A DNA stretch of 46,762 nucleotides from Roseburia sp. GTDB taxonomy: Bacteria > Bacillota > Clostridia > Lachnospirales > Lachnospiraceae. The translations under genes were made by a program, and so were the position numbers. The DNA is taken from positions 1 to 46,762 of the forward strand of contig JALEKJ010000041.1 of the NCBI GenBank assembly GCA_022771695.1, given 5' to 3'. The notes beneath the pieces are model-generated. The model worked only from the letters and a program-made list of their open reading frames with translations. It was not told the DNA's origin and ran no database searches. Positions 514 to 45,714 of the stretch are shown here, one piece after another (within the stretch, counting starts at the first letter, position 1; each line of letters starts with the position of its first letter).

Positions 514-1263
514 CTAGTCAACTGTCTTTTTCTCAGCAACAATTCGAATAATAGGCGGGTCACTTTCCCCGTAAGGTGCAAATCCTCTTTTCTCACATGA
601 ATATGCCAATTTCAAACCTGCATTTTTTAAAAGGTTCTCTAAATTTTCTTTACGAACAAATCGTCTATAATGTCCCTCGTAAATATACTCGTCGTCTCCT
701 ACCTTTTCCCCTTTTCCATACAATTCATCATTCACACTTCTCACTTCTATAAAGAAATATCCCCCTTCTTTCAATGCATTATATATATTACCAATTAAAT
801 TGTTTTGTTGCTTTTCATTGATTGCATGTAATGAGAATCTGCTATAAATGTAATCAAATTCATTACAATATTTTTCCGTTGAACTTACAAAATCCTCGCA
901 TAAAAAAGTTATATTTTTCCCTTCAAACTCACCTTGAAGCTTTTTCACCGATATGTCAGACGCATCAATCGCAGTCACATTTAATCCACGCCGAAAGAAA
1001 TATGTACTATCTCGGCCGTTTCCGCACCCCAGTTCCAAAAGTTTTTTCTCCTTTGGGTCAATAAACTCTTCCGCAACCCAGTCGGCAAATAATGATTGTT
1101 CCTTAGGCGCACCATTTTCTGCATAATAGCCGTTCCAATACTGCGTATCTCGCTTAAAACTATCCGAAAAATTACTCACACCTCCATGCAGTCGGTTATC
1201 TGCATCCCATTCTCTTCCATTTTCGTAAGTTTGAAAATTAACATCATTAATTCTTTTTTCCAC
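514..1263 (-). CDS. Class I SAM-dependent methyltransferase
   Basis: The protein is about 249 residues, with the SAM-binding motif LELGCGNGRDS near residues 75-86 and an acidic residue after the next strand (AIDAS), as in Rossmann-fold class I methyltransferases. The start chosen is GTG at 1263, because GGGAGG lies 7 bases upstream; a longer in-frame TTG at 1278 would place that site inside the gene. It is the last gene of the leftward phosphonate operon, 59 bases after a glycosyltransferase. Family membership is clear but the substrate is not. A sugar hydroxyl, an amino group or a phosphonate oxygen are all possible, and the operon position suggests late tailoring of the glycan or its phosphonyl group. 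Confidence 0.8.
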   Translation of the reverse strand: MEKRINDVNFQTYENGREWDADNRLHGGVSNFSDSFKRDTQYWNGYYAENGAPKEQSLFADWVAEEFIDPKEKKLLELGCGNGRDSTYFFRRGLNVTAIDASDISVKKLQGEFEGKNITFLCEDFVSSTEKYCNEFDYIYSRFSLHAINEKQQNNLIGNIYNALKEGGYFFIEVRSVNDELYGKGEKVGDDEYIYEGHYRRFVRKENLENLLKNAGLKLAYSCEKRGFAPYGESDPPIIRIVAEKKTVD

Positions 1264-1322
1264 CTTGTTTCCTCCCAATTATATTTTTTCTTTTCAAGCG
1301 ACATCAAAATTTCTCTCGCATC

Positions 1323-2444
1323 TCATTTTCCAATATTAGACAGCCTCCTCCTTGCCGGTTCATAATCTTTACACATTTTATAGTAAACCCGCGCCTCATC
1401 CATCTTCCCAAGACACTCACAAATTACACCAATATTGTAATATGCTGCATAAGAGTTCACTCCCTGATTCCTACACTCTTTATGTGTTGCAGCTTTTTGA
1501 AACTGTTCAATCGCTTCGTCAAAACGGGCATTATTCATATAAATCAATCCCATTAAGAATTGGAAATCCGCACCGTCTCCAAATTCTTCATAAATGTTTT
1601 CAAAAAAGAGCGCTTCCCCAGCATTTCCGCTATTAATAAGTGCATAACCATAAGTCTCAACCATATCAATAACGTATTCCAGCTTCGAATTCAAATCGTA
1701 CGAAAGCCCCTGCGAGAAATATTCACACGCCTGCACATAATCTTCCGCCATATAATAGCTCTTGCCAAGCTGATATAATATATACGGGATTTGTTCTCCC
1801 CTTTTTCCTTCGTTTCCAAACTTTTCGAGATCTTCCCGGACACAGGACACTCCGTTCTCTTCTAGCAAACGTGCCAGTTCCTGCTCAAGCAACGCAATGT
1901 TCCGCCGGGTCTTCTTCTTTCGTTCTTCCTCCGACAGATCATAGCCTGTATGCCCAATCACAATCGGTGTCCTGTAAGTATCATACTCTGTTCCATCTTT
2001 TGCAACCACCTGCTCGTGAATTCTACCTTCATAACAGAAGCTGTCCTTCGCAAAAATACGGTTAATCCATTCCTGATTTTCTTTCCTTATACCATCTCGT
2101 GAAAAGATATTTCTGCGTTTGATACGACCGACTTTCTCCGGATGTTCTTGCAACAACTGCTCCAGTGTCAGTATATCAAATTCCTCTATATACTCATCAC
2201 TGTCAAGCACCAGCACATACGGTTTCGCCGTTTTAGAAACGGCAAAATTCTTTGCCGCCGCAAAGTCATCGCACCAAACAAAATCGTAAAGGTTGTCCGT
2301 ATATCCAACAGCAATCTGCTTCGTATTGTCTGTGGAGCCGGTATCGACCACGACAATCTCCACATCATAAGGCTTTAGGCTCTCCAGGCACCGCGCGATA
2401 TTCTGTTGTTCGTTTTTGGTGATAATACATACTGATAATTGCAT
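1323..2444 (-). CDS. Glycosyltransferase family 2 with C-terminal TPR repeats
   Basis: The protein is 373 residues. The first ~100 are a GT2 fold: LSVCIITKNEQQNI at the start, VVVDTGSTDNT around 31-41 and a DSDE metal motif at 81-84. The C-terminal third holds tetratricopeptide-like helices (YYMAEDYVQACEYFSQGL; YNIGVICECLGKMDEA). GT2-TPR proteins of this layout often glycosylate proteins directly or extend protein-linked glycans, so it could act on flagellin in the cytoplasm. It starts 9 bases after the preceding GT2 gene, and the ribosome site overlaps that gene's end, indicating translational coupling. The acceptor and sugar cannot be read from the sequence. Confidence 0.85.
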   Translation of the reverse strand: MQLSVCIITKNEQQNIARCLESLKPYDVEIVVVDTGSTDNTKQIAVGYTDNLYDFVWCDDFAAAKNFAVSKTAKPYVLVLDSDEYIEEFDILTLEQLLQEHPEKVGRIKRRNIFSRDGIRKENQEWINRIFAKDSFCYEGRIHEQVVAKDGTEYDTYRTPIVIGHTGYDLSEEERKKKTRRNIALLEQELARLLEENGVSCVREDLEKFGNEGKRGEQIPYILYQLGKSYYMAEDYVQACEYFSQGLSYDLNSKLEYVIDMVETYGYALINSGNAGEALFFENIYEEFGDGADFQFLMGLIYMNNARFDEAIEQFQKAATHKECRNQGVNSYAAYYNIGVICECLGKMDEARVYYKMCKDYEPARRRLSNIGK

Positions 2445-2453
2445 TTCTTCGCC

Positions 2454-3470
2454 TTACTCCTGATGTATATTAGTTTCTGTTAATCCTATGCCCACAGCCG
2501 TTGCAAGTTTTCTATCTATACTATTAGGTTGCTCCTTCCATCGTTGACGTAAAAGCTGATTCTCCATAAAGTCCTTCTGATAAGGAGCAATCTTCGTTTT
2601 GACTTCCAATAAAAGATTGCCCTCTATTTTCCCATACCGAAGCAGATAGGTTTTTAACAGACCAATAGTTTCTAATGCAAGCATTTCACTGTATGACTCT
2701 CTATAATCCTTGTATAAATTTCGCTTCTCCAACTCCTGTAACAGCATAATTTGCACATCAAGATATCCCATCATATCTGCTTTTCTCGATTCATCAATCG
2801 ATGCCGACGTCTCAGAAAAAATATGATGATAATAAACTTTATCCACTATATAGACATGTCTCACATATTGTTTCACAAGCTCATAAAAATAGATATCATC
2901 ATAGATATATCCCTCAGGAAAACGAATATCATTTTTCTGAAGCATTTCTCTGCGGTAAATCTTATTCCAAATGCACCGGACACTATCCATTGTAATAAAT
3001 GCCAAACGTTCTTCTGCCGTCTGAACGTCATAAAACGCATCCTGCCGTTTAGAAGTATCCCAACCCCGCAATTCTTCGCTCACTACGGTTCCACTTTTTC
3101 TGTTATCATAACCGCATACAACCATGTCACATTGGAACAATTCTGCTTTTTCATACATCTGCGCAAACATTTCCGGTTCCAATATGTCATCATCGTCTAC
3201 AAAACCGACATACTTTGCCGTTGCATATCCTAATCCTATGTTACGTGCAGCTCCCTGTCGCCTATTTTCTTCGCAATGAATTGCCTTTACATTTTGTGGA
3301 TATCTTTTCTCAAAGTCACATATTTTCTCCCATGTTCTGTCGACAGACGCATCATCCACAAATATTATTTCAAGGTTTGAAATTCCAATCGACTGATTTT
3401 CTAATCCTTTAAAACAACATTCCATATACTGCTCTGCATTATAGCAGGGAATAATAATACTGATTTTCAA
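2454..3470 (-). CDS. Glycosyltransferase family 2
   Basis: The protein is about 338 residues with a canonical GT2 N-terminus (KISIIIPCYNAEQY), VDDASVDRT and a DDDD metal motif (GFVDDDDILEPEMF). The start is read as TTG at 3470: it overlaps the TGA stop of the upstream gene (TTGA) and GGGAG lies 7 bases before it. An upstream TTG in the same frame would add residues not typical of the family. Overlapping stop and start indicate coupling to the phosphotransferase upstream. It probably adds one sugar to the flagellin glycan; donor and linkage are unknown. Confidence 0.85.
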   Translation of the reverse strand: MKISIIIPCYNAEQYMECCFKGLENQSIGISNLEIIFVDDASVDRTWEKICDFEKRYPQNVKAIHCEENRRQGAARNIGLGYATAKYVGFVDDDDILEPEMFAQMYEKAELFQCDMVVCGYDNRKSGTVVSEELRGWDTSKRQDAFYDVQTAEERLAFITMDSVRCIWNKIYRREMLQKNDIRFPEGYIYDDIYFYELVKQYVRHVYIVDKVYYHHIFSETSASIDESRKADMMGYLDVQIMLLQELEKRNLYKDYRESYSEMLALETIGLLKTYLLRYGKIEGNLLLEVKTKIAPYQKDFMENQLLRQRWKEQPNSIDRKLATAVGIGLTETNIHQE

Positions 3471-4960
3471 CCAATCTCTCCCTTCACATATTCCCAAATC
3501 TGTTTTCCAACGTTCCCCTGTGCATTATAAACCAAGTTTGCGAATTCCATTTTTCTCCGGTTCGCCAGAACATCTTCTCCCTTCAGAATCATATCAACGT
3601 AATCCTCCAGGCAGATAACATCTTCATAATATGCCGTCTCAAATCTTCTTCCCTCAGAAATCTCTTCTTCCCTTTTCTGCAGCGCCGCCATTTCGCGAAG
3701 CTTTTGTCCACGTTCTTTCTGCAAAGTAACATCTCTGACAAAAATGGGTTTTCCCGTCACTCCAAACATGACTACCATTGAGCTCCAATCACCAATATAC
3801 GCATCTGCCAATGCGATTGCCAAATGCGGATCAGGTGTCTCGTCATACACCCCATTATCAAGTGCCTTAAATCGCTCAATAACTTTTTGATATCTATTAA
3901 GGATATCGGGATTCATCGCTTTCGCCGTCTCTATACTAAGTGGATGCGGGCGCCATAATACAGCAGCGCCCCCCCTGCCTTCAAACACTGTGATAATTTG
4001 TTCCAAACCGCAAATCATACAGTCTGCATCGTTGATAATGTGTTCCAAATGTGTATTAAGCAGAAATACCTTTCTCCCATCTACAGCTCTTTTCCATTCG
4101 TCCGGTGCTTCCGGTTTATGCAGTTGATTGTATACAACCTTATCGATTTTGGGTGAACCGGATATCACAATTTTTTCCGACTGATTATATTTCAAATAAA
4201 CTTCTCCCACCTGCTTGGACTGCACAAATATCCGCCATGCGTTTTTCACTCCCGGCATCACACAGTAAAAATCTTTTACCTTACCTCCGCAAACCTTGTA
4301 TGGTATATATACCAGATGGTCCGTGTATTTTTTCAGTTCTGAACTAAAGTAGCGCTCCGACAACGAAGTTACGCGATTTTTGTCGTCATATGGGTTATGG
4401 ATAAATATCACATCCGGTAACGCATCTTCAATCCTGTATTCTCTGTAATCGGTAATCGGAATTCCTTCCGGAAACTGTTCCCCTTCATATTCCATTTCCA
4501 AGGCCGCCCGGTCTTCTGTCACATGATAATATGGCACAGGCATAACCCGCACTTGACAGTCAGCTGCCTTTGCCGCCTCTAAGTAAACGGATTCTAGTGC
4601 ATCCCACATAGATGCTTTGTAGGGCATAAAAAGAATTTCATATACAGGCGGTAAAACCTTATCTACCTCTTGTTTTGCATTCTCGCAACACGCAGACACC
4701 TCGCTGCGCTTCATAAAATCCTCATGATTTCCATCAAGACTCAGCTCATATATCATCTCAGCAAGGTTCGTCAATGATGCAATCGCGCAATCAGAATCAG
4801 TAATGCAACGTTCAACAATATCTCCGATTGCAATAACTGTCTCCTGCATCGCCTGAAGAAGTGGCAACACCTCTCTCTGTTCTACGGTTGCAAGGTTCTG
4901 TATCCCTTCATTTACCGTTTCAAATAGCTGCTTTACCCTCTTTTTTTGTTTCTTACTCAT
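3467..4960 (-). CDS. CDP-glycerol glycerophosphotransferase-like protein with helical N-terminus
   Basis: The protein is 497 residues. The C-terminal ~330 residues resemble the TagB/TagF-type polyol-phosphate transferase fold: a central strand/loop VLWRPHPLS and a late motif LADAYIGDWSSMVVMFGVTG, matching the family's (D)xxIxDxSS region. These enzymes move a polyol-phosphate from a CDP carrier to a sugar. Residues 1-120 are an all-helical region without a recognised domain. ATG at 4960 has GGGAGAA upstream. The neighbours are phosphonate genes, so the donor may be a CDP- or CMP-linked phosphonate or alditol rather than CDP-glycerol; this is inference. A second family member lies at 39965-41857. 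Confidence 0.7.
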   Translation of the reverse strand: MSKKQKKRVKQLFETVNEGIQNLATVEQREVLPLLQAMQETVIAIGDIVERCITDSDCAIASLTNLAEMIYELSLDGNHEDFMKRSEVSACCENAKQEVDKVLPPVYEILFMPYKASMWDALESVYLEAAKAADCQVRVMPVPYYHVTEDRAALEMEYEGEQFPEGIPITDYREYRIEDALPDVIFIHNPYDDKNRVTSLSERYFSSELKKYTDHLVYIPYKVCGGKVKDFYCVMPGVKNAWRIFVQSKQVGEVYLKYNQSEKIVISGSPKIDKVVYNQLHKPEAPDEWKRAVDGRKVFLLNTHLEHIINDADCMICGLEQIITVFEGRGGAAVLWRPHPLSIETAKAMNPDILNRYQKVIERFKALDNGVYDETPDPHLAIALADAYIGDWSSMVVMFGVTGKPIFVRDVTLQKERGQKLREMAALQKREEEISEGRRFETAYYEDVICLEDYVDMILKGEDVLANRRKMEFANLVYNAQGNVGKQIWEYVKGEIG

Positions 4961-4987: not shown

Positions 4988-6106
4988 CTAATATGTTGCT
5001 TTTAATATTTCCGCAACATCCCACGCATCCAGTTCTGTCGGATTGTTATCCATCCTTCCAAGCGTAAATGAACTATGTGCGATATCTGTAATCATTTCTT
5101 GTGTAATCTGGTAGTCCCGCAAACGAAGTGATACCTCAGCACCGCACACCCTCTCTAAATATGTGCGGATTCCTCCACACTCCGCAAACAATGCAAGCAA
5201 CTCTTCCTCTCCCTCATAATTGCCATGATTATGTTCCGCCACCTGCGCCAACGTCATAGCAACCGCTGTGCCATGCGGTATCTGATATTTCATTGTAAGA
5301 GGATACGAAATGGAATGACACGCCGTTGTCCTTGTCATCGAAAAAGCAAGCCCTGAAAGAACAGACGCCACACACTGCTTCTCTCGAAGCGATACATCTT
5401 CCGGTTTCTTTAAAATTTGCTCCAGATAGCAAACGGACATCCGAATGGATTCCCTTGCCAATGCTCGTACTAACGGGGACGTTTTCTTAGACCAATATGC
5501 CTCCATCGCATGTGCTATAGAATCTAATCCCGTAGTAATTGTAAGCTTTCTATCTGCTTTCGCAACAAACTCCGGCACAATATATGCCTTATCCGGCTTT
5601 AAGGTATCATGATCTATCGAGTACTTGCAGTTTTTATCATCGTCCCAGATGGTTGCCCACTTTGTCACTTCTGCACCAGTTCCCGCTGTTGTCGGAACTG
5701 CTATTATATCCATTCGATTCTCCCGAATCTCCTTTTTCTGTAAAAGCTCCGTAATTGCCTCTGCCGACATTTCTTCCCCGGGATTATAGAACGCTTTCAT
5801 TCCTTTTGCAAAGTCAATCGCGCTTCCTCCTCCAATCGCAAGAATTGCCTCCGGTTTAAAATTCCGCAGTGTATCCAGCCCTATTTTTAGCATTCCTTGT
5901 GTAGGATACGAAACAGATTCCTTCATCCACAAAAGTTCATACTGTTTTTCCAACTCGTCAACAAATTTCTCCAATTCGTATCTTACGCAAGCCTGTTCCG
6001 ACAAAATCAGTGCCAGTTTCTGATACGGAAGTTTCAGGCAACTATCCTGCAACCGCTGTGTGTTTACAAATTCTATATTTGTCCGGCAAAAATCACTGTA
6101 TACCAT
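4988..6106 (-). CDS. Fe-dependent alcohol dehydrogenase, probable phosphonoacetaldehyde reductase
   Basis: The protein is 372 residues, the normal length for group III iron alcohol dehydrogenases. Visible motifs are GGGSAID (92-98), PTTAGTGAE (138-146) and the metal ligands D195, H199, H264 and H278 (GLDSIAHA; ACHS; IPHGT). Encoded in the same leftward operon as PEP mutase and phosphonopyruvate decarboxylase, it most likely reduces phosphonoacetaldehyde to 2-hydroxyethylphosphonate with NAD(P)H, as PhpC-type enzymes do in phosphinothricin-type clusters. The family is certain; the substrate is inferred from neighbours. GAGGAAGAG precedes ATG at 6106. Confidence 0.8.
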   Translation of the reverse strand: MVYSDFCRTNIEFVNTQRLQDSCLKLPYQKLALILSEQACVRYELEKFVDELEKQYELLWMKESVSYPTQGMLKIGLDTLRNFKPEAILAIGGGSAIDFAKGMKAFYNPGEEMSAEAITELLQKKEIRENRMDIIAVPTTAGTGAEVTKWATIWDDDKNCKYSIDHDTLKPDKAYIVPEFVAKADRKLTITTGLDSIAHAMEAYWSKKTSPLVRALARESIRMSVCYLEQILKKPEDVSLREKQCVASVLSGLAFSMTRTTACHSISYPLTMKYQIPHGTAVAMTLAQVAEHNHGNYEGEEELLALFAECGGIRTYLERVCGAEVSLRLRDYQITQEMITDIAHSSFTLGRMDNNPTELDAWDVAEILKATY

Positions 6107-6126
6107 CTGTCGTTCTCTTCCTCACT

Positions 6127-6831
6127 TTATTTCAATATGCTTCTCACCGCAATCAAATCTTCTTCCTTGTCCACTTCCTGGCATAACATCTCGCCGAAAT
6201 CATATGGATACAATTTTATCTGATTCGTGACCTGATTCAGTGCATTTTCCGCATAACAAGAGACCTCTCCCGACTCACAGAACGTCGCAATCCGATCCAA
6301 CCATATCCCCCATGCCTTTTTCCCAAAATGATACAATGGTTGTGCAGCAACTGCACTTTCCATAAATTCAATGCCGACCGCCTTGATAAGTCCATCTTTA
6401 AGAACCGCCTTAAAATCTTTCTCCGGCAATTCCAGTGCAGAACTGACTGCCATACAGTCTACCTTTGATTTCATAACCTGCTCAAGAACTTTCTCTTCGA
6501 ACACTAAGTCACCATGCATCAGAAGAATCTCATCGTGCAACAATTCTCTTGCAAGATAGATGGAGTAAATATAGTTCGTTTCATTATATTGAGGATTATT
6601 CACAAACTCAATTTGCAACGGCAAACCAAGTTCTTTTATATGGTCTTTCAAAAGTTCCTCATAAGGTCCTGTTGTCATCACCACTTCGGAAATTCCCATT
6701 CGTGAGATTAGCCGAAGCTGCCTTGCAACAATTGTCTCCCCATCCGTCAGCTCTACCATACATTTGGGGGATGACGCCGTATATTTCCCCATTCTGCTAC
6801 CCAAGCCGGAATTAAGTATCAAAGCTTTCAC
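6127..6831 (-). CDS. LicC/PntC-like nucleotidyltransferase (candidate phosphonate cytidylyltransferase)
   Basis: The protein is 234 residues with a MobA/RmlA-like nucleotidyltransferase fold. It starts ALILNSGLGSRMG, a glycine-rich NTP loop, followed by a conserved lysine (SPKCMVEL), NETNYIYSIYLA near 83-94 and a metal-binding HGD at 106-108. The pattern is that of LicC (CTP:phosphocholine cytidylyltransferase) and of PntC, which activates phosphonates as CMP esters. It begins 3 bases after the phosphonopyruvate decarboxylase and is followed by the reductase, so the product of that branch, hydroxyethylphosphonate, is the simplest substrate. No choline uptake or choline kinase gene is nearby. 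A sugar-phosphate substrate cannot be excluded. Confidence 0.7.
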   Translation of the reverse strand: MKALILNSGLGSRMGKYTASSPKCMVELTDGETIVARQLRLISRMGISEVVMTTGPYEELLKDHIKELGLPLQIEFVNNPQYNETNYIYSIYLARELLHDEILLMHGDLVFEEKVLEQVMKSKVDCMAVSSALELPEKDFKAVLKDGLIKAVGIEFMESAVAAQPLYHFGKKAWGIWLDRIATFCESGEVSCYAENALNQVTNQIKLYPYDFGEMLCQEVDKEEDLIAVRSILK

Positions 6832-6834
6832 GTT

Positions 6835-7965
6835 CTACATCTCCTTTATATATTGCATAAAATTCTCTTTATTCTCTTCTGCCGTTGTTGTAGGCCGTCC
6901 CAAATCGCTTCTCGCTCCTAATGCGGTTTTGATTTCTATAAACGTCAATTCCTCTGCCTCTTTTGCCGTTTTAACCGCCAGCGCAACCTCCTCCAACGTG
7001 GATGCTTTTAGTATTCTCTTGTAGCCGCAGCCTTCCGCAATCTTGGCAAGGTCTATCTTTGCTGCAACCGTAGGCATCCCTCCCACTGTTTCATGAGACT
7101 CATTGTTGATTACAATATGCACATAATTGCAGGGTGCATTCGCTCCGATTACGGCCATCGCTCCCATGTGCATTAATACTGCTCCATCGCCATCAATGCA
7201 CCATACTTTTCGCTCCTTCTTTTCCAGTGCAATACTAAGTGCAATGGAAGAGCTATGTCCCATAGAACCGACTGTGAGGAAATCGTATTTATGCGACTGT
7301 CCATTCTGCTCCCTAATTTCAAACAGCTCTCTCGATGCCTTGCCCGTAGTCGATACAATTATATCCTCACCAATGTTTCTTACAATTTCTTTCAATGCAT
7401 CTTCCCGCTTAATCGTATATGGATTCGTATACTTTACGGGATTCTCGCTGGTCAGCGCACCCTTTTCCACAATAAACGCCACACATTTCCCTTCACAAAG
7501 CAAATCTTTGAAGCCTTCTGCCGCTTCTTTCAACGCATCTATTGCCATGTCTTTTCGTATGATGACTGTTTGGATAGTAAGCAGTTCCATCAGACTTTGT
7601 GTAATTTCACCTTGAAACACATGCTGTGGTTCATCCTTAGTCCCCGGCTCTCCTCGCCATCCTACAACAAAAACACAGGGGATTTTATATACCTCAGGTG
7701 CCATAAGCGACGCATACGGATTTAACATATTTCCCTCGCCGCTGTTCTGCATGTAGACGCAAGGTATTCTACCGGTTGCCAGATGATATCCTGCCGCAAG
7801 CCCGGTTGCATTTCCCTCGTTTGCCGCTACGATATGTTTGTCCGAAACACCATATCTGTTCATGATTTCTCCGGTGAAAGGACCAAGTAGCGAATCCGGC
7901 ACCCCCGTATACAACCCTATTCCAAACATTTCTTCTAATACATCAATAAAATCATCTGCCCTCAT
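6835..7965 (-). CDS. aepY: Phosphonopyruvate decarboxylase (Ppd)
   Basis: The protein is 376 residues and thiamine-diphosphate dependent. The catalytic glutamate sits in AANEGNA (E50). The ThDP/Mg motif begins IDGDGAVLMHMGAM (GDGA at 259-262) and closes with INNESHETVGG (NN at 287-288). Length and motifs match phosphonopyruvate decarboxylase, which makes phosphonoacetaldehyde and pulls the unfavourable PEP mutase equilibrium forward. Placement directly after PEP mutase (16-base gap) fixes the assignment over sulfopyruvate decarboxylase. GGAGG lies before ATG at 7965. Confidence 0.93.
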   Translation of the reverse strand: MRADDFIDVLEEMFGIGLYTGVPDSLLGPFTGEIMNRYGVSDKHIVAANEGNATGLAAGYHLATGRIPCVYMQNSGEGNMLNPYASLMAPEVYKIPCVFVVGWRGEPGTKDEPQHVFQGEITQSLMELLTIQTVIIRKDMAIDALKEAAEGFKDLLCEGKCVAFIVEKGALTSENPVKYTNPYTIKREDALKEIVRNIGEDIIVSTTGKASRELFEIREQNGQSHKYDFLTVGSMGHSSSIALSIALEKKERKVWCIDGDGAVLMHMGAMAVIGANAPCNYVHIVINNESHETVGGMPTVAAKIDLAKIAEGCGYKRILKASTLEEVALAVKTAKEAEELTFIEIKTALGARSDLGRPTTTAEENKENFMQYIKEM

Positions 7966-7981
7966 CTCTCTGCCTCCATGA

Positions 7982-9262
7982 TTAGATTAATGTCAGTATC
8001 TCTTTGATTGGCATGCAATCCTCATCCACTTCAAGAGAACGTTCATTCTCCAAGATTGTGTGTGCAACCTTATTCATCGCCGGAAATGCGCTTCGAATCA
8101 AGTGGTTCGCATAAATAATAATATTTACACCATATTTCCCGAGCTCTTTTTCTGTAATATGATTATAGGTAGTCGGCACGACAACAATCGGCACATCCTC
8201 ACACTTCTCTCTGAACTTCTCACAGAACTCCAATACCTCATCCGGCTCCTTATCCTTAGAATGAATCATGATACCGTCTGCTCCGGCCTCCACATAAGCA
8301 AATGCCCGCTTTAACGCATCTTCCATCCCCTTTGCCAGAATCAGGCTTTCAATTCTTGCGATAATCATAAAATCTTTTGTCATCTGCGCTGCTTTTCCCG
8401 CCCGTATTTTTTCACAAAAATGTTCGATAGAATCCTGCTGCTGCGCTGCATCTGTTCCAAAAAGCGAATTCTTTTTTAGTCCAATTTTGTCCTCAATAAT
8501 AATTGCGGATACCCCCATTCGCTCCAACGTCTTTACCCGATACACAAAATGCTCAATCAATCCGCCGGTGTCTCCATCCAGAATGATTGGTTTCGTCGTC
8601 ACTTCCATAATTTCGTTAATGGTATTTTCGCGCGAGGTCATATCCACAAGTTCAATATCCGGTTTCCCTTTCGCCGTAGAGTCACACAGGCTCGATATCC
8701 ACATCGCATCAAATTGTCTGATTTCATCCTCTTTTTCCACTTGTGTTTTTTCTACAATCAACCCTGTAATACCATTATGCGCCTCAAGAACACGAAGCGG
8801 TCTATCCGCTAACTGCAATGCTCTCCTTAGCTTCCCCCTGCGAATTTCCGGCATATAACGAAGCTGTTCCGCCTGCCTGTCAAATATTTCGTATTCGCTT
8901 TTGTCCGTATACGGGAACTCCACGAGTTCACCGCCGTACTGCTGCAGTAGTTTTTGAACCTTTTCCCTTGATTTTCCTCTCCACCTGTCACTATGTACCA
9001 CATAATCCGGTCTTAATTCTGCAATTATTTTATCATAGCTCAGTGTATCCTTCTTAATTACTCTGGATACCCCTTTTATATGGCTGATAATGTTGCATCT
9101 TTCCTCATATGTCAGTACCGGATACCCGCGATACGACATAAAAGCTTCATCCGATAAAACACCAACGGTCAGTTCTCCCAATTCAGCCGCTTTCTCAATT
9201 ATAGCGATATGACCCCCATGAATAAATTCTGCCCCTATACTTAAAAACACCGTTTTGGCCAT
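7982..9262 (-). CDS. aepX: Phosphoenolpyruvate mutase with N-terminal nucleotidyltransferase domain
   Basis: The protein is 426 residues. Residues 1-~135 are a cytidylyltransferase-like domain with the HxGH-type signature HGGH (15-18). Residues ~150-426 are the isocitrate-lyase-superfamily mutase, with LDGDTGG (228-234) and the PEP-mutase signature EDKIGLKKNS (257-266), which separates it from lyases and hydrolases of the family. It converts PEP to phosphonopyruvate, the entry step to almost all natural C-P compounds. The two-domain form is known in other bacterial aminoethylphosphonate pathways; the N-terminal domain's job is not established. It starts just after the LicD gene, whose last codons supply the ribosome site. 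Confidence 0.95.
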   Translation of the reverse strand: MAKTVFLSIGAEFIHGGHIAIIEKAAELGELTVGVLSDEAFMSYRGYPVLTYEERCNIISHIKGVSRVIKKDTLSYDKIIAELRPDYVVHSDRWRGKSREKVQKLLQQYGGELVEFPYTDKSEYEIFDRQAEQLRYMPEIRRGKLRRALQLADRPLRVLEAHNGITGLIVEKTQVEKEDEIRQFDAMWISSLCDSTAKGKPDIELVDMTSRENTINEIMEVTTKPIILDGDTGGLIEHFVYRVKTLERMGVSAIIIEDKIGLKKNSLFGTDAAQQQDSIEHFCEKIRAGKAAQMTKDFMIIARIESLILAKGMEDALKRAFAYVEAGADGIMIHSKDKEPDEVLEFCEKFREKCEDVPIVVVPTTYNHITEKELGKYGVNIIIYANHLIRSAFPAMNKVAHTILENERSLEVDEDCMPIKEILTLI

Positions 9263-9264
9263 GC

Positions 9265-10209
9265 CTACTCGCCCCTCCCTTTCTCCCAGTCTTCCTTGGT
9301 TAAATAAAGGTATTCTTTCTTCATTTGTTCTTCTATGCTACAGCCCCGCAAATCAATCTCCACATCCAAATTGTAGCTTTTCGGAGGATGTATCAAACGC
9401 TGTGACTCTGGTGGATATTTCCACGGTTCTGCATACTCACACTCGATATATGCCATACAGTCTTTGCATATGTAAACCATGAACCCTTCATACTCTATCT
9501 CAACAGCTTCCTCAAACCACTCTGACAAAACGGTTCCTCTCTCATACCATTTTCCATTTTTTCGGAATGCATCCTGACGATAAAATGACATACAGCACAT
9601 GCGTTTAGTCGCTTTTTTATTCGCCCTTTTTCCGAGCCACTCCATAATCCCCAGCGGAACTTCTTTTGGTACATGGCGCAAGCCTCTGTACAAAAACTTT
9701 TTCAGTAGATTGGATTCTGCCGTCACACCAATTACTGACCACAGGGTCTTTATGCATCCCCTTCGCACCAAATAGTAAATCCCTGCCATAATATTATTGT
9801 CCGGTATATTATCCATAATAAAGATATCTATGGATACACCAGAAACACACTTTATCGCTTCCTGTCCTGCTCGTAAATATTCCGTTCCCTTTCTTCTGAC
9901 CTTTGCATATCCCCATCGATACTCCGAATCTGTCCGAGCGGTCTGTAAGAAGAATCTGTCTGTATCCAGCTTTGTCTTGCAAACCCTTTCAAATTTCTCG
10001 AACTCTTTACGAGTCATTCTAATATCCAGATCATCATCCCATGGAATAAATCCTTTATGCCTTACTGCTCCCAATGCTGTCCCATACGCTATGAAGTACA
10101 TAATATTATTTTCCCTGCAGATACGATCTACTTCTAACAGCATCTCTAACTCGACAAGCTGTAACTTTCTCAAATCCTTCGCGGACATTGTCTTTTTCTC
10201 TGCTTCCAT
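9265..10209 (-). CDS. licD: LicD-family phosphotransferase, phosphonate operon copy
   Basis: The protein is 314 residues. The LicD core is at 43-62 (GTALGAVRHKGFIPWDDDLD), with the metal-binding aspartate run, followed by a second conserved block (VSIDIFIMDNIPD). LicD proteins transfer phosphocholine or similar groups from a CDP carrier to sugars in the cytoplasm. This copy differs from the four other LicD proteins in the window in its N-terminus (KDLRKLQLVELEMLLEVDRIC) and C-terminus, so it is an older lineage. As the first gene of the phosphonate operon, just before PEP mutase, its likely donor is CMP-hydroxyethylphosphonate or CMP-aminoethylphosphonate (inference). AAGGAG lies 11 bases before ATG at 10209. 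Confidence 0.88.
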   Translation of the reverse strand: MEAEKKTMSAKDLRKLQLVELEMLLEVDRICRENNIMYFIAYGTALGAVRHKGFIPWDDDLDIRMTRKEFEKFERVCKTKLDTDRFFLQTARTDSEYRWGYAKVRRKGTEYLRAGQEAIKCVSGVSIDIFIMDNIPDNNIMAGIYYLVRRGCIKTLWSVIGVTAESNLLKKFLYRGLRHVPKEVPLGIMEWLGKRANKKATKRMCCMSFYRQDAFRKNGKWYERGTVLSEWFEEAVEIEYEGFMVYICKDCMAYIECEYAEPWKYPPESQRLIHPPKSYNLDVEIDLRGCSIEEQMKKEYLYLTKEDWEKGRGE

Positions 10210-10428: not shown

Positions 10429-10791
10429 TTAAGCGATGACTTCTCTGGCTACCGCACCAAGTTTCTCCAATTCCGGTTCAAGCGCACAAAATGCATCTGC
10501 AATTTTCTGGTCTTCCCTTGACTTGACTGCCTCTCCCAACGCAACAACCTTCTCGTTGAAAGCATCCTTTGCAATTCGCTCTTCCCCTTCATTAAGCACA
10601 TCCATCGTCGCATTCAACACCTGAATCTCCCAGTTTATAGCGTTGATAATACTATCCTGAAACTTATCTGTATCATCCAAACGCTGTCCGGATAATTCCT
10701 TTACCAATATTCCTATATTCTTGATAACCTTGTCATTAAATGTAACAAGTGTCTCTAACGCCTCAATCTTTTCTACTCTGCTATCCTCCAT
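10429..10791 (-). CDS. Small helical protein under a sigma-D promoter
   Basis: The protein is about 120 residues, acidic, predicted almost entirely alpha-helical, with no signal peptide or membrane segment. I do not recognise a family. ATG at 10791 is chosen because AGGTGG lies 5 bases upstream; GTG at 10800 is possible. Its end (SREDQKIADAFCALEPELEKL) resembles the end of the small protein encoded between fliC and maf (LRDGLALADLLCYDISEELRLL), which suggests they are distant relatives. It follows the NeuA-KdsC gene after 91 bases but has its own flagellar-type promoter and a downstream stem-loop. A flagellin-binding or glycosylation-accessory role is a guess. Confidence 0.7.
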   Translation of the reverse strand: MEDSRVEKIEALETLVTFNDKVIKNIGILVKELSGQRLDDTDKFQDSIINAINWEIQVLNATMDVLNEGEERIAKDAFNEKVVALGEAVKSREDQKIADAFCALEPELEKLGAVAREVIA

Positions 10792-10846
10792 GATACCCAC
10801 CTGACCTTGCGGTCTTTTCCTTTCCTTGTATTTGTGTCTCTTTTAT

Positions 10847-10882: not shown

Positions 10883-12082
10883 TTACTCCTGTTTTTCCGA
10901 CTTCCCCAGAATGTACTCTATTACTTCGCGGACTGCACCGTTTCCCCCCGACCGCTTTGTCACATAATCTACGATTTCTTTGACTTCCTCCATTGCCCCC
11001 GGTACACTGGCGGAAAACCCCACGGCCTTTAAGAGTTCCTTATCATTAACATCATCGCCCACATATGCCACTTCCTGCATGGTAATCCCATACTGCATAC
11101 AGATTTCCTGTACTACAGATAGTTTGTCTGTTACCCCCATCTTTAAGATATCCAGTTTCAATTTCTGCGCACGACGTGCCACCAGAGTCGTATTCTCACC
11201 GGTAATAATTCCGCAAAGAATTCCCTTATCTCGCATCAACCGAAAACCCAATCCGTCCAGTGTAGAAAATTTCTTTAGTTCATCTCCGTTTTCAGAATAA
11301 TACATTCCTCCGTCTGTCAGACATCCATCGCAGTCTGTCAAAAACATCTTAATCGACTGTCTCTCACCGCTTAACTTATTCGGCTTCTCAGTACGCAAAC
11401 GCCGTTCCAGCATCTTTTCAATCATCTGCCAATCAGACGGCTCATCGATCTCAAAGAATGTATCCTCACTCATCTCCACCGCCTTAACCCTGCCGGAAAT
11501 GCGATTTCCGGTCTCAAGCAGGCACTTTTTTGATGTAATGTAAAAAGCGCCATTCTCCACGCAGTATCCATCAAAATCCTGCCGTCTTGGCCGATGAAAA
11601 TAGTCATAATTTAAGGCCCGCGCCGTACCGTCTGCCTCCACTGCCCAATTAAATCGTTTCTGCCGTACCACAGAAAGTACGCTGTCCGTATCCGCCTCCT
11701 CAAAAAGTGCAAATCCCCTATCCAAATCACCCTCCGTAAGAAGCGGTGAAGTTGCCTGAACCAACACAATGTGGTCAAAATCATAATTTGCCGCGAACTC
11801 AAGCATTGCAGATTCCGTAGAGGCTGTATCGGAAGCAGATTCCGCACTTCGCCCAATCACTTCCAACTTCTGAAAGACCGCATCATTTTCTGTTCTCTTT
11901 ATTTCAAGCAATGCCTCTCGTATCTTCTCACTGTCCGTTGCGACATATACACGGTCAATCTTATCACAGTTACAAGCTGCCGCCACAGTCCAATATACCA
12001 GTGGTTTTCCACACATCGGTTTTATATTTTTAAGCGGAATCGACTTGCTTCCACCTCTGACCGGAATAAATGCTACATTCAT
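10883..12082 (-). CDS. neuA: CMP-nonulosonate cytidylyltransferase fused to KdsC-type HAD phosphatase
   Basis: The protein is 399 residues. Residues 1-~230 are NeuA-like, with the CTP-binding loop IPVRGGSKSIPLKN (6-19) and the LVQATSPL strand. Residues ~243-395 are a KdsC-family HAD phosphatase with motif I LTDCDGCLTD (D250, D252 catalytic) and motif IV GDDVND (342-347), so the phosphatase looks active. The pair of activities fits removal of phosphate from a nonulosonate 9-phosphate followed by CMP activation for Maf or another transferase. The NeuB partner is encoded far away at 37870-38745. GGAGG lies 6 bases before ATG at 12082. The exact sugar (KDN, Neu-type or legionaminate-type) is unknown. 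Confidence 0.88.
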   Translation of the reverse strand: MNVAFIPVRGGSKSIPLKNIKPMCGKPLVYWTVAAACNCDKIDRVYVATDSEKIREALLEIKRTENDAVFQKLEVIGRSAESASDTASTESAMLEFAANYDFDHIVLVQATSPLLTEGDLDRGFALFEEADTDSVLSVVRQKRFNWAVEADGTARALNYDYFHRPRRQDFDGYCVENGAFYITSKKCLLETGNRISGRVKAVEMSEDTFFEIDEPSDWQMIEKMLERRLRTEKPNKLSGERQSIKMFLTDCDGCLTDGGMYYSENGDELKKFSTLDGLGFRLMRDKGILCGIITGENTTLVARRAQKLKLDILKMGVTDKLSVVQEICMQYGITMQEVAYVGDDVNDKELLKAVGFSASVPGAMEEVKEIVDYVTKRSGGNGAVREVIEYILGKSEKQE

Positions 12083-20129: not shown

Positions 20130-20181
20130 AGTCTGCTTTACTGTCCCCTTTATCTCTTTTTGCGCAGGATTGCTTCTGCCA

Positions 20182-21984
20182 TCACAGTCTTTTCTCAATG
20201 GCACTCCGCAATTCATCATTATCGGCGCAGTCTCTTATCGCAATTCTGATATACTGCTTTCCATTATCAATCTTTCCAGTAAGATCCTTAATAAGAATGT
20301 TATCCTTTAGTAACTCTGCTGCTAACGCTTCACTGCGTTTTCCATTCGTAAGTTCACACATAAAATAGTTTGCCGAAGACGGATAAACCTTAATTCCTTT
20401 TATCTTGCAGAGTTCCTGATAAAAACGGCTGCGTTCTTCTCTAAGCTGTACCAGCGCCTGCTGATAGTCGCTTCTGTATTTGTCCAATATCTGCATGAAA
20501 AATTCTCCTATAGAATTAATATTCCATATAGATACTTTTTTCTTTAGCACCGCAATCATCTTCTCATCATAACTAGCCAGAACCCCCAAACGCAGTCCCG
20601 GTACACCATAGGATTTTGATATGCTCTTAACCAGATATAAATTCGGATACTTTTTCAAAATATGCTCAGACAGCATAGATGCATTTGTCTCATCTGCAAA
20701 ATCAAGGAAACTCTCATCCAAAATCAATGCAACCCCGGTAGATTTACACCAATCCAAAATACGTCTAATTTCCTTCTTTTCCAAATAATGTCCGGATGGA
20801 TTATCCGGGTTAATCAAAACAAGCACATGAATCGGATGCTCTGTAAAATAAGTACATATACTCTCTGCATCATAGGCAAAATCACTCTCTCGACAATCAT
20901 ATGTCACATACTCACCATTGCATCGATGCGGATACTCCTCAAACGTCGGACGAATCACACCTACGGTTCCTTCCATTTCCGCCAAAAGCTCCTTAATTAA
21001 CTCTGCCGCTCCGTTTCCAATTACGATATGTTCCTCAGACACCGCAAAGCTTTTGGCCGCCAAAAGACTGTTTACCCTCATGCCGGATGGATACTGTCTG
21101 ACCAGCACGTCAAAGTTCGACTTTATTTCATTCATCATTCTGTCTGTCGGGAAATATGGATTTACCAGATAACAAAAATCCTTTAAATGCGGGAATCTCC
21201 AATATCCGCCATATCGTGATGTCAATGTCTTATAGCGTTCCACATCATCCTCAAGGAATAACAGTTCCGCAATATCCAAATCCTGAATATCATCAATTTC
21301 GTACCATAACTCACCCTGCAGTCGTTTTGCCTTCATGGTATTTTTATCCAGAGTCAAGATTAGTTTGATCACAGTCTCATAGTATTCGTTATTGCCCATT
21401 ACCTTAGCATAGGCTTCCAGAAACGGAACGTAAACGTTTCGTGAAAAATCAGCACTGAGTTTATAAATATTTACCGTCTTATAATAATGCTCCTTATCTG
21501 TGTACTTAAGCAGTTTCCCCGGAATAAAATCTATAATATTATCATCATCATCTACCATGATGCAGGTTCCATCCATCCAGTTTTCAAACTTATCTACGAG
21601 CGCCAATGTTTCGCGTTTATCCTCAAGTATTAAATCTATCAGATGTTCCTCAAAAATCAAATCCGATTCCAGCAGAAGAGTGTCCTCCTGCCCCATCTGT
21701 TCCTTCGCCAGAGAAAGCGAGAAAATATTGTTTGTTTTATCATACACATCATTGACAATATATTCTATCGGCGTATTTATGCCAAGGCCGTCCACAAATG
21801 CCGTCAAATTCTCATGCCGGTAACCGACCACCATAATAATTCTTGATAAGCCCTTTTTATCTAGAATCCTTAACGCACGCTCTACCAGTTTAACTCCTCC
21901 GACTTCCACCATGCACTTCGTGTTTTCTTTCGTCAATTTTCCCAAACGTTTTCCCATTCCTGCTGCTAAAATAATCGCCTGCAT
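20182..21984 (-). CDS. Nucleotidyltransferase-aminotransferase fusion (PntC-AEP transaminase-like)
   Basis: The protein is 600 residues. Residues 1-~240 are a LicC/PntC-type nucleotidyltransferase: ILAAGMGKRLGKLT, lysine in TKCMVEVGG, TNNIFSLSLA, and metal aspartate in LLESDLIF (~104-111). Residues ~265-600 are a class I/II PLP aminotransferase: NPDNPSG (392-398), DESFLDF (423-429), SISKSYG with PLP lysine K457, and GLRLG. The architecture matches the PntC-transaminase fusion described from Treponema denticola phosphonate biosynthesis. It would therefore make aminoethylphosphonate from phosphonoacetaldehyde and CMP-activate it. The aminotransferase is also CobD/HisC-like, so an amino-acid phosphate substrate is an alternative. 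AAGGAGG precedes the ATG. Confidence 0.85.
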   Translation of the reverse strand: MQAIILAAGMGKRLGKLTKENTKCMVEVGGVKLVERALRILDKKGLSRIIMVVGYRHENLTAFVDGLGINTPIEYIVNDVYDKTNNIFSLSLAKEQMGQEDTLLLESDLIFEEHLIDLILEDKRETLALVDKFENWMDGTCIMVDDDDNIIDFIPGKLLKYTDKEHYYKTVNIYKLSADFSRNVYVPFLEAYAKVMGNNEYYETVIKLILTLDKNTMKAKRLQGELWYEIDDIQDLDIAELLFLEDDVERYKTLTSRYGGYWRFPHLKDFCYLVNPYFPTDRMMNEIKSNFDVLVRQYPSGMRVNSLLAAKSFAVSEEHIVIGNGAAELIKELLAEMEGTVGVIRPTFEEYPHRCNGEYVTYDCRESDFAYDAESICTYFTEHPIHVLVLINPDNPSGHYLEKKEIRRILDWCKSTGVALILDESFLDFADETNASMLSEHILKKYPNLYLVKSISKSYGVPGLRLGVLASYDEKMIAVLKKKVSIWNINSIGEFFMQILDKYRSDYQQALVQLREERSRFYQELCKIKGIKVYPSSANYFMCELTNGKRSEALAAELLKDNILIKDLTGKIDNGKQYIRIAIRDCADNDELRSAIEKRL

Positions 21985-22004
21985 CCCTTTTTCCTCCTTA
22001 ATCT

Positions 22005-22985
22005 CTAAACATATAATTTTCCTGTTGATACTTTATCGCAAAACTCTTCTACGCTTCCCGTAAAACCAACTGCCGCAATCTGCTTCTTCAATTCATTTTC
22101 CATATGACCATAAAATGGGTAATCATGTCCGGCAGTTCCTCTTACAGGTCTCATGTAGTCGCCGTATATCAAGGTCAGAAACTCGTCGTATCCAACCGGA
22201 ACGGGAACTTTGATATTTTCGAAAGGCAAATACACCACCTCATCAAACCATTCTTTTTTTAGGCGAAATGCATCTCTGTCTATCCAAACATCATATTTGG
22301 TCAACTCCTCCGCCTCATCTATCCGGTACAGAGAACTAACAGCGTCAAGCATACGCCAAATCCAATTCCTGCTTCCCTTTCCTCGCGGTATCTGCATACC
22401 TGATAATTGCTCCAGTTTCTGCAATGCACTCTCTAATCTCTGCTCTTTTTCCAATATCTCCCAATCCCGCAAAAGCGGAATTCCATATCGGATAATATCT
22501 TTCTGCTGTTTCGCCCGCTCAATGTCCTGCGGAACCGCATCTAATGGAAAAATATCAATTCCCACCCTCTGATATGGGAACCCGTGAAACCGTTTCATAT
22601 AATCGTTAAAGTTCCATAAAGTCTCATCCGCAATCACTCGGAGCTGTGGAACATACGCCGCCATCTGCAGGCGTTCGTTCGCCGCATACATACCGGCAAC
22701 GACAAACCCATATGGTAATCCCTGTGGAAGAATTCTTATCAGAGCATCATAGTCATTCCGTTTCATACATATATCGATGTCATCATCCCATGGAATAAAT
22801 CCCTGATGCCGAACCGCTCCAAGTAAGGTTCCCGCATACGCAAAGTACTGTAATCCATGCCTTTGACACACTTCATCAACAACCAAAAGTACTTCCATCT
22901 GTGCTGTCCATGCCCGTTTCATCATCTCATCGATTTCAAATCCATCCCGTATTTCCCGTTTCAGGAAATCTTTTGAAAAAATCAT
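22005..22985 (-). CDS. licD: LicD-family phosphotransferase (paralogue 1)
   Basis: The protein is about 326 residues, with the LicD core YAGTLLGAVRHQGFIPWDDD and IDI plus a C-terminal MRPVRGTAGHDYPFYG block. ATG at 22985 is chosen, 8 bases after AGGAG; the GTG two codons upstream sits too close to that site. It is the first gene of the long leftward operon under a sigma-D-type promoter, with the nucleotidyltransferase-aminotransferase fusion directly behind it (20 bases). The simplest reading is transfer of CMP-aminoethylphosphonate or a related group to a sugar. It shares its whole length with the two rightward copies at 23081 and 24085, so the divergent pair arose by duplication. Confidence 0.88.
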   Translation of the reverse strand: MIFSKDFLKREIRDGFEIDEMMKRAWTAQMEVLLVVDEVCQRHGLQYFAYAGTLLGAVRHQGFIPWDDDIDICMKRNDYDALIRILPQGLPYGFVVAGMYAANERLQMAAYVPQLRVIADETLWNFNDYMKRFHGFPYQRVGIDIFPLDAVPQDIERAKQQKDIIRYGIPLLRDWEILEKEQRLESALQKLEQLSGMQIPRGKGSRNWIWRMLDAVSSLYRIDEAEELTKYDVWIDRDAFRLKKEWFDEVVYLPFENIKVPVPVGYDEFLTLIYGDYMRPVRGTAGHDYPFYGHMENELKKQIAAVGFTGSVEEFCDKVSTGKLYV

Positions 22986-23007
22986 TGCCACTTCTCCTAA
23001 AAATATA

Positions 23008-23035
23008 TATATATTTCGTCCATTTTTGCCGATAT
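23008..23035 (+). promoter_or_regulatory. Sigma-D-type promoter, rightward
   Basis: A perfect GCCGATAT -10 element (23028-23035) has TATA 16 bases upstream (23008-23011), 3 of 4 matches to TAAA. It drives the two LicD genes and the sulfatase-like gene. The two divergent elements interlock in an extremely A+T-rich stretch. Confidence 0.55.
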
Positions 23036-23040
23036 ATTTA
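23013..23040 (-). promoter_or_regulatory. Sigma-D-type promoter, leftward
   Basis: Read leftward: TAAA (23037-23040), 16 bases, GACGAAAT (23013-23020), 6 of 8 matches to GCCGATAT with a perfect -35. It drives the 22985-10883 operon and overlaps the opposing promoter. Confidence 0.5.
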
Positions 23041-23080
23041 GTGTATATTTATTTTAACATAATTAAGGAGTTATATATAT

Positions 23081-37813: not shown

Positions 37814-37869
37814 TGATAAATATTGATAAATATTGACAGATAATAATTTTTATAATGGAGGTTTTATAT

Positions 37870-38745
37870 ATGAATAACTATCAAAAGCCATATGTCATCG
37901 CAGAAGCCGGCTGTAACCATAAGGGCGATATGGAAATCGCCAAAGAACTCATCAATGTTGCCGCTATGTTCTGCCATGCGGATGCCATCAAGTTTCAGAA
38001 GCGCTGCCCGAAGGAACTTCTGACTCCTGAACAATACAACGCACCTCACCCAAATCCGTGTAATTCTTATGGCGACACATACGGTGCTCATCGGGAATTC
38101 TTGGAATTTACCGTGGACCAGCATGCACAATTAAAAGAATGGTGCGAGGAAGCGGGTATCACCTACGCAACCTCCGTATGGGATATGACCTCTGCAAAGG
38201 AAATTGCATCCTTGAAGCCAAGTTTTATCAAGATTCCTTCCGCCTGCAACACGCACTATGAAATGCTGCAGTGGCTCTGCGACAATTACCAAGGCGAAAT
38301 TCAGCTGTCTTTCGGTATGACTACGCACGACGAGGAAGAAGAGATTGTCAGACTGTTTGAAAACAACGGGCGCGCTAAAGATCTTGTTCTTTTCAACTGT
38401 ACCTCTGGTTACCCCGTGCCATTTTCTGATATCTGCCTATTGGAAATTGAACGTATGCAAAAGAGCTACGGTTCCCGCGTGAAAAAAATCGGTTTTTCCG
38501 GTCATCATCTTGGTATAGCTGTCGATGTTGCCGCCTATACCTTAGGTGCAAGTGTCATTGAACGTCACTATACTTTGGACCGTACCTGGAAGGGCACTGA
38601 TCACGCCGCCTCCTTAGAGCCGGACGGTGTCCGTAAGCTCGTGAGAAATCTGAATGCAGTCTATGATTCCCTGACCTACAAGTCTGAGGAAATTCTACCT
38701 ATTGAGCAAGTACAGAGAGACAAATTAAAATATCGAAAACACTAA
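37870..38745 (+). CDS. neuB: Nonulosonic acid synthase (NeuB family) without SAF domain
   Basis: The protein is about 291 residues. NeuB blocks are YVIAEAGCNHKGDMEIAKEL, DAIKFQKR, GITYATSVWD, KIPSACN and the terminal VIERHYTLDRTWKGTDHAAS. The start is ATG 37870 with GGAGG 8 bases upstream; an ATG at 37855 contains that site. The usual C-terminal antifreeze-like SAF domain (~60 residues) is missing and the gene ends cleanly, so this is the short form. It condenses PEP with a hexose derivative or hexose phosphate. No PseB/LegB dehydratase, NeuC epimerase or pseudaminate genes accompany it; the NeuA-KdsC fusion at 10883 is the obvious partner. Confidence 0.88.
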   Translation: MNNYQKPYVIAEAGCNHKGDMEIAKELINVAAMFCHADAIKFQKRCPKELLTPEQYNAPHPNPCNSYGDTYGAHREFLEFTVDQHAQLKEWCEEAGITYATSVWDMTSAKEIASLKPSFIKIPSACNTHYEMLQWLCDNYQGEIQLSFGMTTHDEEEEIVRLFENNGRAKDLVLFNCTSGYPVPFSDICLLEIERMQKSYGSRVKKIGFSGHHLGIAVDVAAYTLGASVIERHYTLDRTWKGTDHAASLEPDGVRKLVRNLNAVYDSLTYKSEEILPIEQVQRDKLKYRKH

Positions 38746-41857: not shown

Positions 41858-41893
41858 AAAGAGTGTTCCGGATTTAACCGGAACACTCTTTTT
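41856..41893. terminator. Bidirectional terminator between convergent genes
   Basis: Perfect 16-base arms (41856-41871, 41878-41893) around a 6-base loop are flanked by A5 and T5. It overlaps the stop codons of both the rightward phosphotransferase and the leftward maf gene. Confidence 0.92.
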
Positions 41894-45145: not shown

Positions 45146-45172
45146 ATATCGGACGAAAGTCACGATACTTTA
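45146..45172 (-). promoter_or_regulatory. Sigma-D promoter of fliC
   Basis: Read leftward: TAAA (45169-45172), exactly 15 bases, TCCGATAT (45146-45153), 11 of 12 consensus positions. The predicted start is near 45139, giving a leader of about 130 bases. Confidence 0.88.
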
Positions 45173-45693: not shown

Positions 45694-45714
45694 ATACACT
45701 CCTATTTTTATACT

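Follow-up and report, generated by a model that had tools for sequence, protein, structure and literature searches.

A predicted phosphonate-tailoring gene set within a Maf-type flagellin glycosylation island of a Lachnospiraceae bacterium

Gene content of the phosphonate run and the flagellin end

The stretch of DNA analyzed here (the window) is a complete contig (C25, JALEKJ010000041.1; 46,762 bp) from the 3.28-Mb genome of a Lachnospiraceae bacterium; it carries a run of genes belonging to families of phosphonate synthesis and transfer and, at its opposite end, a flagellin locus. The run lies on the minus strand in the order LicD, a fusion of a cytidylyltransferase (CyT) domain with phosphoenolpyruvate (PEP) mutase (PepM), phosphonopyruvate decarboxylase (Ppd), nucleotidyltransferase, iron-containing alcohol dehydrogenase (Fe-ADH), and a TagB/TagF-like protein, with intergenic gaps from LicD to the TagB-like gene of 2, 16, 3, 20, and 27 bp. 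Its genes, with those that follow at its 3' end, are:

9265..10209, minus: LicD-family phosphotransferase at the head of the run, candidate transferase (PF04991, 126 bits)
7982..9262, minus: Fom1-like cytidylyltransferase and PEP mutase fusion (PF01467 and PF13714; TIGR02320)
6835..7965, minus: phosphonopyruvate decarboxylase, Ppd (TIGR03297, 450.7 bits, cut-off 312.5)
6127..6831, minus: MobA/LicC-like nucleotidyltransferase, of the type accompanying the Fe-ADH route (PF12804)
4988..6106, minus: iron-containing alcohol dehydrogenase that presumably reduces phosphonoacetaldehyde to 2-hydroxyethylphosphonate (HEP) (PF00465/PF25137)
3467..4960, minus: TagB/TagF-like GT-B protein, candidate phosphonate or phosphoalcohol transferase (PF04464 in orthologues, and neighborhood)
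2454..3497, minus: GT2 glycosyltransferase overlapping the TagB-like gene (PF00535)
1323..2444, minus: GT2-TPR glycosyltransferase (PF00535 and TPR)
514..1278, minus: methyltransferase at the 3' end of the run (PF13489)

In the PepM fusion, the N-terminal CyT domain spans residues 13–109 and the PEP mutase about 147–426. The mutase scores 419.5 bits against TIGR02320 (cut-off 319.55), and its motif EDKIGLKKNS fits EDKXXXXXNS. The CyT domain aligns at 109 bits with PDB 5x3d, which we take to be the CyT domain of Fom1, with 53 of 117 aligned residues identical and HGGH opposite HPGH in the HxGH motif. Two nucleotidyltransferases accompany the mutase, the fused PF01467 domain and the PF12804 gene two genes away. 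The scores of PepM and Ppd both exceed the curated NCBIfam thresholds. An earlier note on this DNA, made from the letters of the sequence, had named genes of this run, all of which lie at its coordinates, on the minus strand; it mentioned neither the N-terminal CyT domain of PepM nor the extension of the run into the TagB/TagF-like gene at 3467–4960. The first 520 bases of the contig had no convincing match among the loci fetched.

At the other end of the window, maf lies beside fliC in the company of sugar genes, as is characteristic of a Maf glycosylation island. The fliD gene is incomplete because the window is the entire contig and the gene is cut at its end.

41874..43736, minus: Maf flagellin glycosyltransferase (PF01973, 121 bits)
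44194..45006, minus: flagellin FliC, 270 aa (PF00669/PF00700)
45214..45699, minus: FliT/FlgN-like protein (PF05130)
45715..46092, minus: FliS (PF02561)
46176..46760, minus: FliD, C-terminal part (PF07195)

PepM and its partners near flagellin in other Lachnospiraceae

A search for the same neighborhood in other Lachnospiraceae, suggested in the earlier note, found that PepM–flagellin islands recur, for example in Roseburia sp. RGIG9039 and in the genomes G398 and G139. The closest named PepM relative, 92% identical, is that of Roseburia sp. RGIG9039 (Roseburia and Kineothrix are both Lachnospiraceae genera), a genome in which, by hand count, 27 of the window's 40 genes recur in unchanged order and the middle of the island differs. 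One end of its island holds Maf, orf98, FliC, FliT, FliS, and FliD; the other holds LicD, PepM, Ppd, nucleotidyltransferase, Fe-ADH, TagB, and GT2 genes and, next to them on that strand, a second flagellin that shares 50% identity with the window FliC. G398, the genome of locus L052 (uncultured Eubacteriales), encodes FliC–GT2-TPR–GT2-TPR–TagB–LicD–CyT-PepM on one strand; some 40 kb away, a mirrored FliC–GT2-TPR–GT2-TPR–TagB run leads to a second, different PepM, which is fused to a nucleotidyltransferase and exceeds the TIGR02320 cut-off. This second protein (L149:9040-10632) carries its nucleotidyltransferase at the C-terminus and lies near the second flagellin, the CyT-PepM being near another. 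A single strand of G139 bears fliD–fliS–fliT–fliC–fliC–Maf and LicD-like–PepM–Fe-ADH–Ppd, and PepM is also present in flagellin-linked islands of G188, G157, G315, G022, and Kineothrix sp. MSJ-39 (G177).

The partner genes recur as well. Relatives of GT2-TPR (56–101 bits) stand between flagellin and the TagB-like gene in L052, L149, L160, and L162, and relatives of LicD (185–570 bits) lie near flagellin in L051, L052, L108, L149, and L162; one further LicD relative (L090, 214 bits) has no FliC nearby. Of the other sampled genomes, only G292 belongs to the genus of the window; it has no PepM at the cut-off and carries fliD–fliS–fliT, three fliC genes, GT2-TPR, and TagB on one strand.

Proximity was measured in 397 Lachnospiraceae genomes, with PepM called at E <= 1e-60 and flagellin at E <= 1e-20. 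PepM occurred in 46 genomes, 32 of which encode flagellin, against 180 of the 351 others (P = 0.014). Nine of the 32 flagellated pepM genomes have a flagellin-domain gene no more than 40 kb from PepM, against an upper-bound chance expectation of 2.6 (P = 0.0007), and six have one no more than 20 kb away, against 1.34 (P = 0.0018). A surface-sugar control, rmlA, was near flagellin in 2/31 genomes at 40 kb and in 0/31 at both 20 kb and 10 kb. Leaving out the discovery genome, the 40-kb count becomes 8/31 (P about 0.003). Two of the nine cases are weak (G381, FlgL-like, 63 bits; G135, partial, 99 bits), and restricting the count to flagellin matches of at least 100 bits, sorted by hand, gives 7/32 (P about 0.013). 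The same PepM family is found in Bacteroidales and Methanosphaera records; two metagenome-assembled genome (MAG) loci labelled Methanosphaera, an archaeon (L076 and L099), carry the same set of CyT-PepM, Ppd, Fe-ADH, and nucleotidyltransferase, suggesting either inter-domain transfer or binning errors.

The TagB/TagF-like partner was found in flagellated genomes only. At a threshold of E <= 1e-30, its family is present in 66 of the 397 genomes, and all 66 encode flagellin, against a baseline of 212/397 (Fisher P = 4e-21). At least 16 of these 66 genomes have the gene no more than 10 kb from flagellin, where about 3% per genome would be expected assuming five flagellin loci per 3.2 Mb; at a distance of up to 40 kb the number is at least 27. 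Its putative reaction is assigned from PF04464 in orthologues and from neighborhood, because a PDB sequence search with 3467–4960 gave no match and its fold comparison ended in a tie: the fold is GT-B, with Foldseek placing UDP-GlcNAc 2-epimerases first and VIA-align tying TagF and epimerase. The window copy does not match PF04464 (cut-off 22.1), which is reached by the orthologue in L051 (25.0 bits) and, among more distant relatives, by L160 (25.5); L052 (21.5) and L149 (18.9) fall below it, and L162 has no match.

Predicted destination and identity of the phosphonate

We propose, with a probability of about two in three, that the window carries genes dedicated to phosphonate tailoring, set within a flagellin glycosylation island of the Maf type. 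The flagella of this bacterium and its relatives would then probably carry phosphonate groups made by the pathway. Judging from strong family matches, PepM would convert PEP to phosphonopyruvate and Ppd would convert the latter to phosphonoacetaldehyde, which Fe-ADH could reduce to HEP. By analogy with Fom1 and PntC, the CyT domain and/or the stand-alone nucleotidyltransferase may form a cytidine monophosphate (CMP)-phosphonate, from which the TagB/TagF-like protein and/or LicD, candidates by family and neighborhood, would move the phosphonate onto the flagellin sugar chain in the cytoplasm. The decorated flagellin would then be exported and assembled into the filament.

A number of observations weigh against this proposal. 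Its links between phosphonate and flagellum are all genomic, the chemistry in this organism being deduced from them. In the window, PepM is about 36 kb from fliC, with opposite-strand genes between, and the single exact sigma-28-like site is at fliC, with none at the pepM genes. The dehydrogenase, described in the earlier note as phosphonoacetaldehyde-reductase-type, is indeed an Fe-ADH whose top NCBIfam match is TIGR03405 (phosphonate Fe-ADH), but its 200.9 bits fall under the 423.7 cut-off. Flagellin is absent from 14 of the 46 Lachnospiraceae pepM genomes. Proximity within 10 kb is not significant (2/32 against 0.70, P = 0.15), and the 40-kb count limited to matches of at least 100 bits drops to 6/31 (P about 0.035) without the discovery genome. 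FliC was not found in the fetched flanks (up to 10 kb) of 77 of 80 related PepM loci, and MAGs labelled [Clostridium] leptum, a species we take to be non-motile, carry PepM relatives of 63–64% identity. The flagellin-linked PepMs do not form a single clade: on a quick tree of 113 rows, 12 of them labelled (weak G135 and G381 included), with duplicates and one row without EDKXXXXXNS removed, the cases are scattered and at least 10 label changes are needed, the unlabelled rows including contigs too short to reveal linkage. Near the PepMs of G315 and G177, both flagellin-linked, the stretches fetched contain no Ppd, Fe-ADH, or PhnW, which leaves these pathways incomplete over the DNA covered. In 39 of the 66 genomes with the TagB-like gene, that gene is not within 40 kb of a flagellin among the matches listed, contigs being broken.

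Among the alternatives, the best placed is that the phosphonate is destined for teichoic acid, capsule, or another envelope glycan, its flagellin neighborhood reflecting a hotspot effect. The same PepM family does occur in flagellin-less Lachnospiraceae (14/46) and in Bacteroidales and Methanosphaera records, and relatives of LicD and TagF are best known from wall polymers. We nevertheless consider an envelope destination unlikely. The TagB-like partner is confined to flagellated genomes of the sample, and the Roseburia island is conserved with flagellin at both ends. Furthermore, a glycan built on a lipid carrier needs a flippase, exporter, or polymerase, so the lack of polytopic membrane proteins argues against capsule or teichoic acid, whereas Maf systems modify flagellin in the cytoplasm. 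A simple hydropathy count assigns at most one membrane segment to any open reading frame (ORF) in the 46.8 kb of the window, and thus no polytopic flippase, polymerase, or exporter is encoded there, the rest of the genome not having been searched. For other loci, polytopic was defined as four or more segments. Of the 34 named pepM loci that are 20 kb or longer and have no FliC nearby, 30 encode a polytopic protein (43 of 77 named FliC-less loci being shorter and excluded), as do 20 of 23 other Lachnospiraceae pepM stretches, in which L146 repeats L058 of the first control. Flagellin-linked pepM loci have one within 10 kb in 2/10 cases (Fisher P = 1e-4 and 4e-4 against the two controls), several of them being cut by contig ends. 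The two weakly linked loci, which stand outside this test, point in opposite directions, G381 having no polytopic ORF and G135 three. The absence of polytopic proteins is our main argument against capsule or teichoic acid, although export genes could lie elsewhere in the genome.

A second alternative, somewhat less likely again, retains flagellin as the target and replaces HEP with 2-aminoethylphosphonate (AEP) or another derivative. AEP is the sole phosphonate we found reported on a flagellin (PMC8861647). An AEP-type flagellin island exists in the sample too, because G157 encodes the AEP transaminase PhnW above cut-off. In the window, however, no ORF reaches the cut-off of PF00266 (class V aminotransferase), a DegT protein coming to 19.8 bits against 21.5, and its aminotransferases, DegT and CobD/HisC-like, belong to families other than that of PhnW. 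A co-occurrence survey of 103 PepM loci (L058 and L146 being one place counted twice) found Fe-ADH and PhnW mutually exclusive, with both present in 0/103. Fe-ADH accompanied the window's nucleotidyltransferase type at 39 loci and stood without it at 3, while PhnW loci comprised 25 with a PntC-type enzyme, 7 with neither type, and 0 with the window's type. Of the 29 loci without Fe-ADH or PhnW, 7 had the nucleotidyltransferase type of the window, 1 had the PntC type, and 21 had none. This exclusion and co-occurrence pattern places the window in an HEP-type branch with its own nucleotidyltransferase, a type also found as part of longer, triple-fusion PepMs of 668–670 aa in G188, G139, and G022 (259–285 bits). 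The CyT domain alone is no proof of HEP, because PhnW-type loci carry it too. As a whole, the genes are reminiscent of a Fom1-type route in which HEP is made and then activated with CMP. The PepM fusion would make phosphonopyruvate and probably CMP-HEP, the latter being the product of the fused domain of Fom1 according to PMC6697681.

A third alternative, in which the product is a small diffusible phosphonate and not a decoration of the surface, is very improbable. The PepM fusion together with Ppd and Fe-ADH is similar to the opening of the fosfomycin pathway, but the run also holds genes for LicD, a TagF-like protein, and glycosyltransferases, which suggest that a glycan is the acceptor. A search limited to the 40 ORFs of the window gave no Pfam match for a cobalamin-binding domain, cobalamin radical S-adenosylmethionine (SAM) methylase, or HPP epoxidase, and a fosfomycin-type antibiotic was rejected for want of these later genes in the window.

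Comparative genomics thus favors the phosphonate-decorated flagella envisaged in the earlier note, through the Roseburia island, pepM–flagellin proximity, the TagB-like family, and the lack of membrane export machinery in the window. Its premise that no flagellum was known to carry phosphonates is outdated: in 2022, AEP was reported on a small part of the FliC type A glycan of Clostridioides difficile, an organism described as pepM-negative in PMC8861647, which leaves the origin of the AEP open. What is new here is a predicted dedicated pathway within flagellin islands, its HEP route, and its recurrence; among the papers listed in searches of the open-access PMC literature, we found no report of pepM or a phosphonate pathway in a flagellin locus. 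A broader proposal, which we regard as an even bet, is that gut Lachnospiraceae have in common a chassis for modifying flagellin (GT2-TPR, TagB-like transferase, LicD), which takes different phospho-donor modules. Modules for CMP-phosphonates (HEP via Fe-ADH, AEP via PhnW) would have been recruited repeatedly, making flagella with hydrolysis-resistant phosphonate caps a common, genetically programmed gut surface chemistry and such bacteria a possible source of the C. difficile AEP. In gut Lachnospiraceae, flagellin is prominent both as an antigen and as a target at the surface. The C–P bond withstands enzymes that split phosphate esters, and the predicted cap would alter charge and, as suggested in the earlier note, could affect phage adsorption or host TLR5 sensing. 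The present findings locate candidate dedicated flagellar phosphonate pathways and predict the phosphonate carried by each.

Remainder of the island and comparison with known systems

Between the phosphonate run and the flagellin end lie further genes of nonulosonate and phospho-decoration families, listed here with a promoter-like site upstream of fliC:

10429..10800, minus: small protein (Kineothrix sp. MSJ-39, G177, has a 52-bit relative upstream of fliC; Roseburia, 213 bits)
10883..12082, minus: CMP-nonulosonate synthetase-like and KDO-8-P/KDN-9-P phosphatase-like fusion (PF02348; TIGR01670, 152.5 bits, cut-off 106.95)
20182..21984, minus: nucleotidyltransferase and CobD/HisC-like pyridoxal phosphate enzyme fusion, second phospho-decoration module (PF12804 and PF00155; 6oux, 163 bits)
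22005..22991, minus: LicD of the second module (PF04991)
37855..38745, plus: NeuB nonulosonate synthase (PF03102)
39965..41857, plus: CDP-glycerol glycerophosphotransferase-like protein (PF04464, 53 bits)
45147..45172, minus: sigma-28-like promoter site upstream of fliC, the sole exact match in the window

The small proteins at 10429–10800 and 43754–44050 have no Pfam match; their relatives in other genomes are encoded upstream of fliC or in the space separating it from Maf, and they are possible flagellin-modification accessory proteins. A protein that combines a radical SAM domain with a DltD-like C-terminal part (13248–15341) was not found at the equivalent place in Roseburia (L051:4715-9030), where ATP-grasp, RraA-like, asparagine-synthase-like, and GNAT genes replace it; the island middle is therefore variable. 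The second module (19059–22991), which also holds an octopine-dehydrogenase-like protein, is kept in Roseburia L051/L131. It may make a cytidine diphosphate (CDP)-amino-alcohol or opine-like decoration, and, as a guess by analogy, this perhaps resembles the phospho-threonine of C. difficile type A. Four LicD genes (starting at 22005, 23081, 24085, and 27105, within 22005–28040) surround a sulfatase-fold protein at 25064–27082; counting that at 9265, the contig has five.

The sigma-28-like site was found with the sigma-28 consensus. One exact match compares with 0.63 expected by chance, and one or more turned up in 46 of 100 shuffles, which leaves its position as the suggestive feature of the site. 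A sigma-28 promoter tying fliC to the pepM genes was considered and rejected, the one exact site being at fliC and a looser pattern giving 55 matches against 53.6 expected. Generic promoter and terminator scans and an Rfam scan of the window gave nothing usable.

Among known systems, the phosphonyl tailoring (Pnt) pathway, which depends on CMP-AEP, is defined in PMC6697681 (Rice et al. 2019), where triple fusions are also reported. The window shares with it an EDKXXXXXNS PEP mutase, Ppd, fused and nearby nucleotidyltransferases, LicD, and glycosyltransferases; it differs in having the predicted Fe-ADH HEP route rather than PhnW and AEP, and in sitting in a flagellin island. The string "flagell" does not occur in the main text of that paper. 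Phosphonate glycoproteins have been proposed in marine microbes (PMC8931226). Fom1 is similar in domain order, in identity across the CyT domain (53/117), in the HxGH motif, and in its Ppd and Fe-ADH partners; unlike the fosfomycin pathway, the window shows no later fosfomycin genes among the 40 ORFs scanned and has candidate tailoring transferases in their stead. The type A system of C. difficile likewise places a phospho-linked, partly phosphonate-linked decoration on flagellin, the first enzyme of its cluster being a glycosyltransferase (PMC8861647). C. difficile is reported to be negative for pepM and to have only minor AEP, whereas the window encodes a predicted pathway within the island, cd0240–cd0244 having been compared by description only. 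Finally, the window resembles Maf-type islands in having Maf beside fliC–fliS–fliD, NeuB, and CMP-nonulosonate synthetase-like genes, and departs from them in adding the predicted phosphonate module and a second phospho-decoration module.

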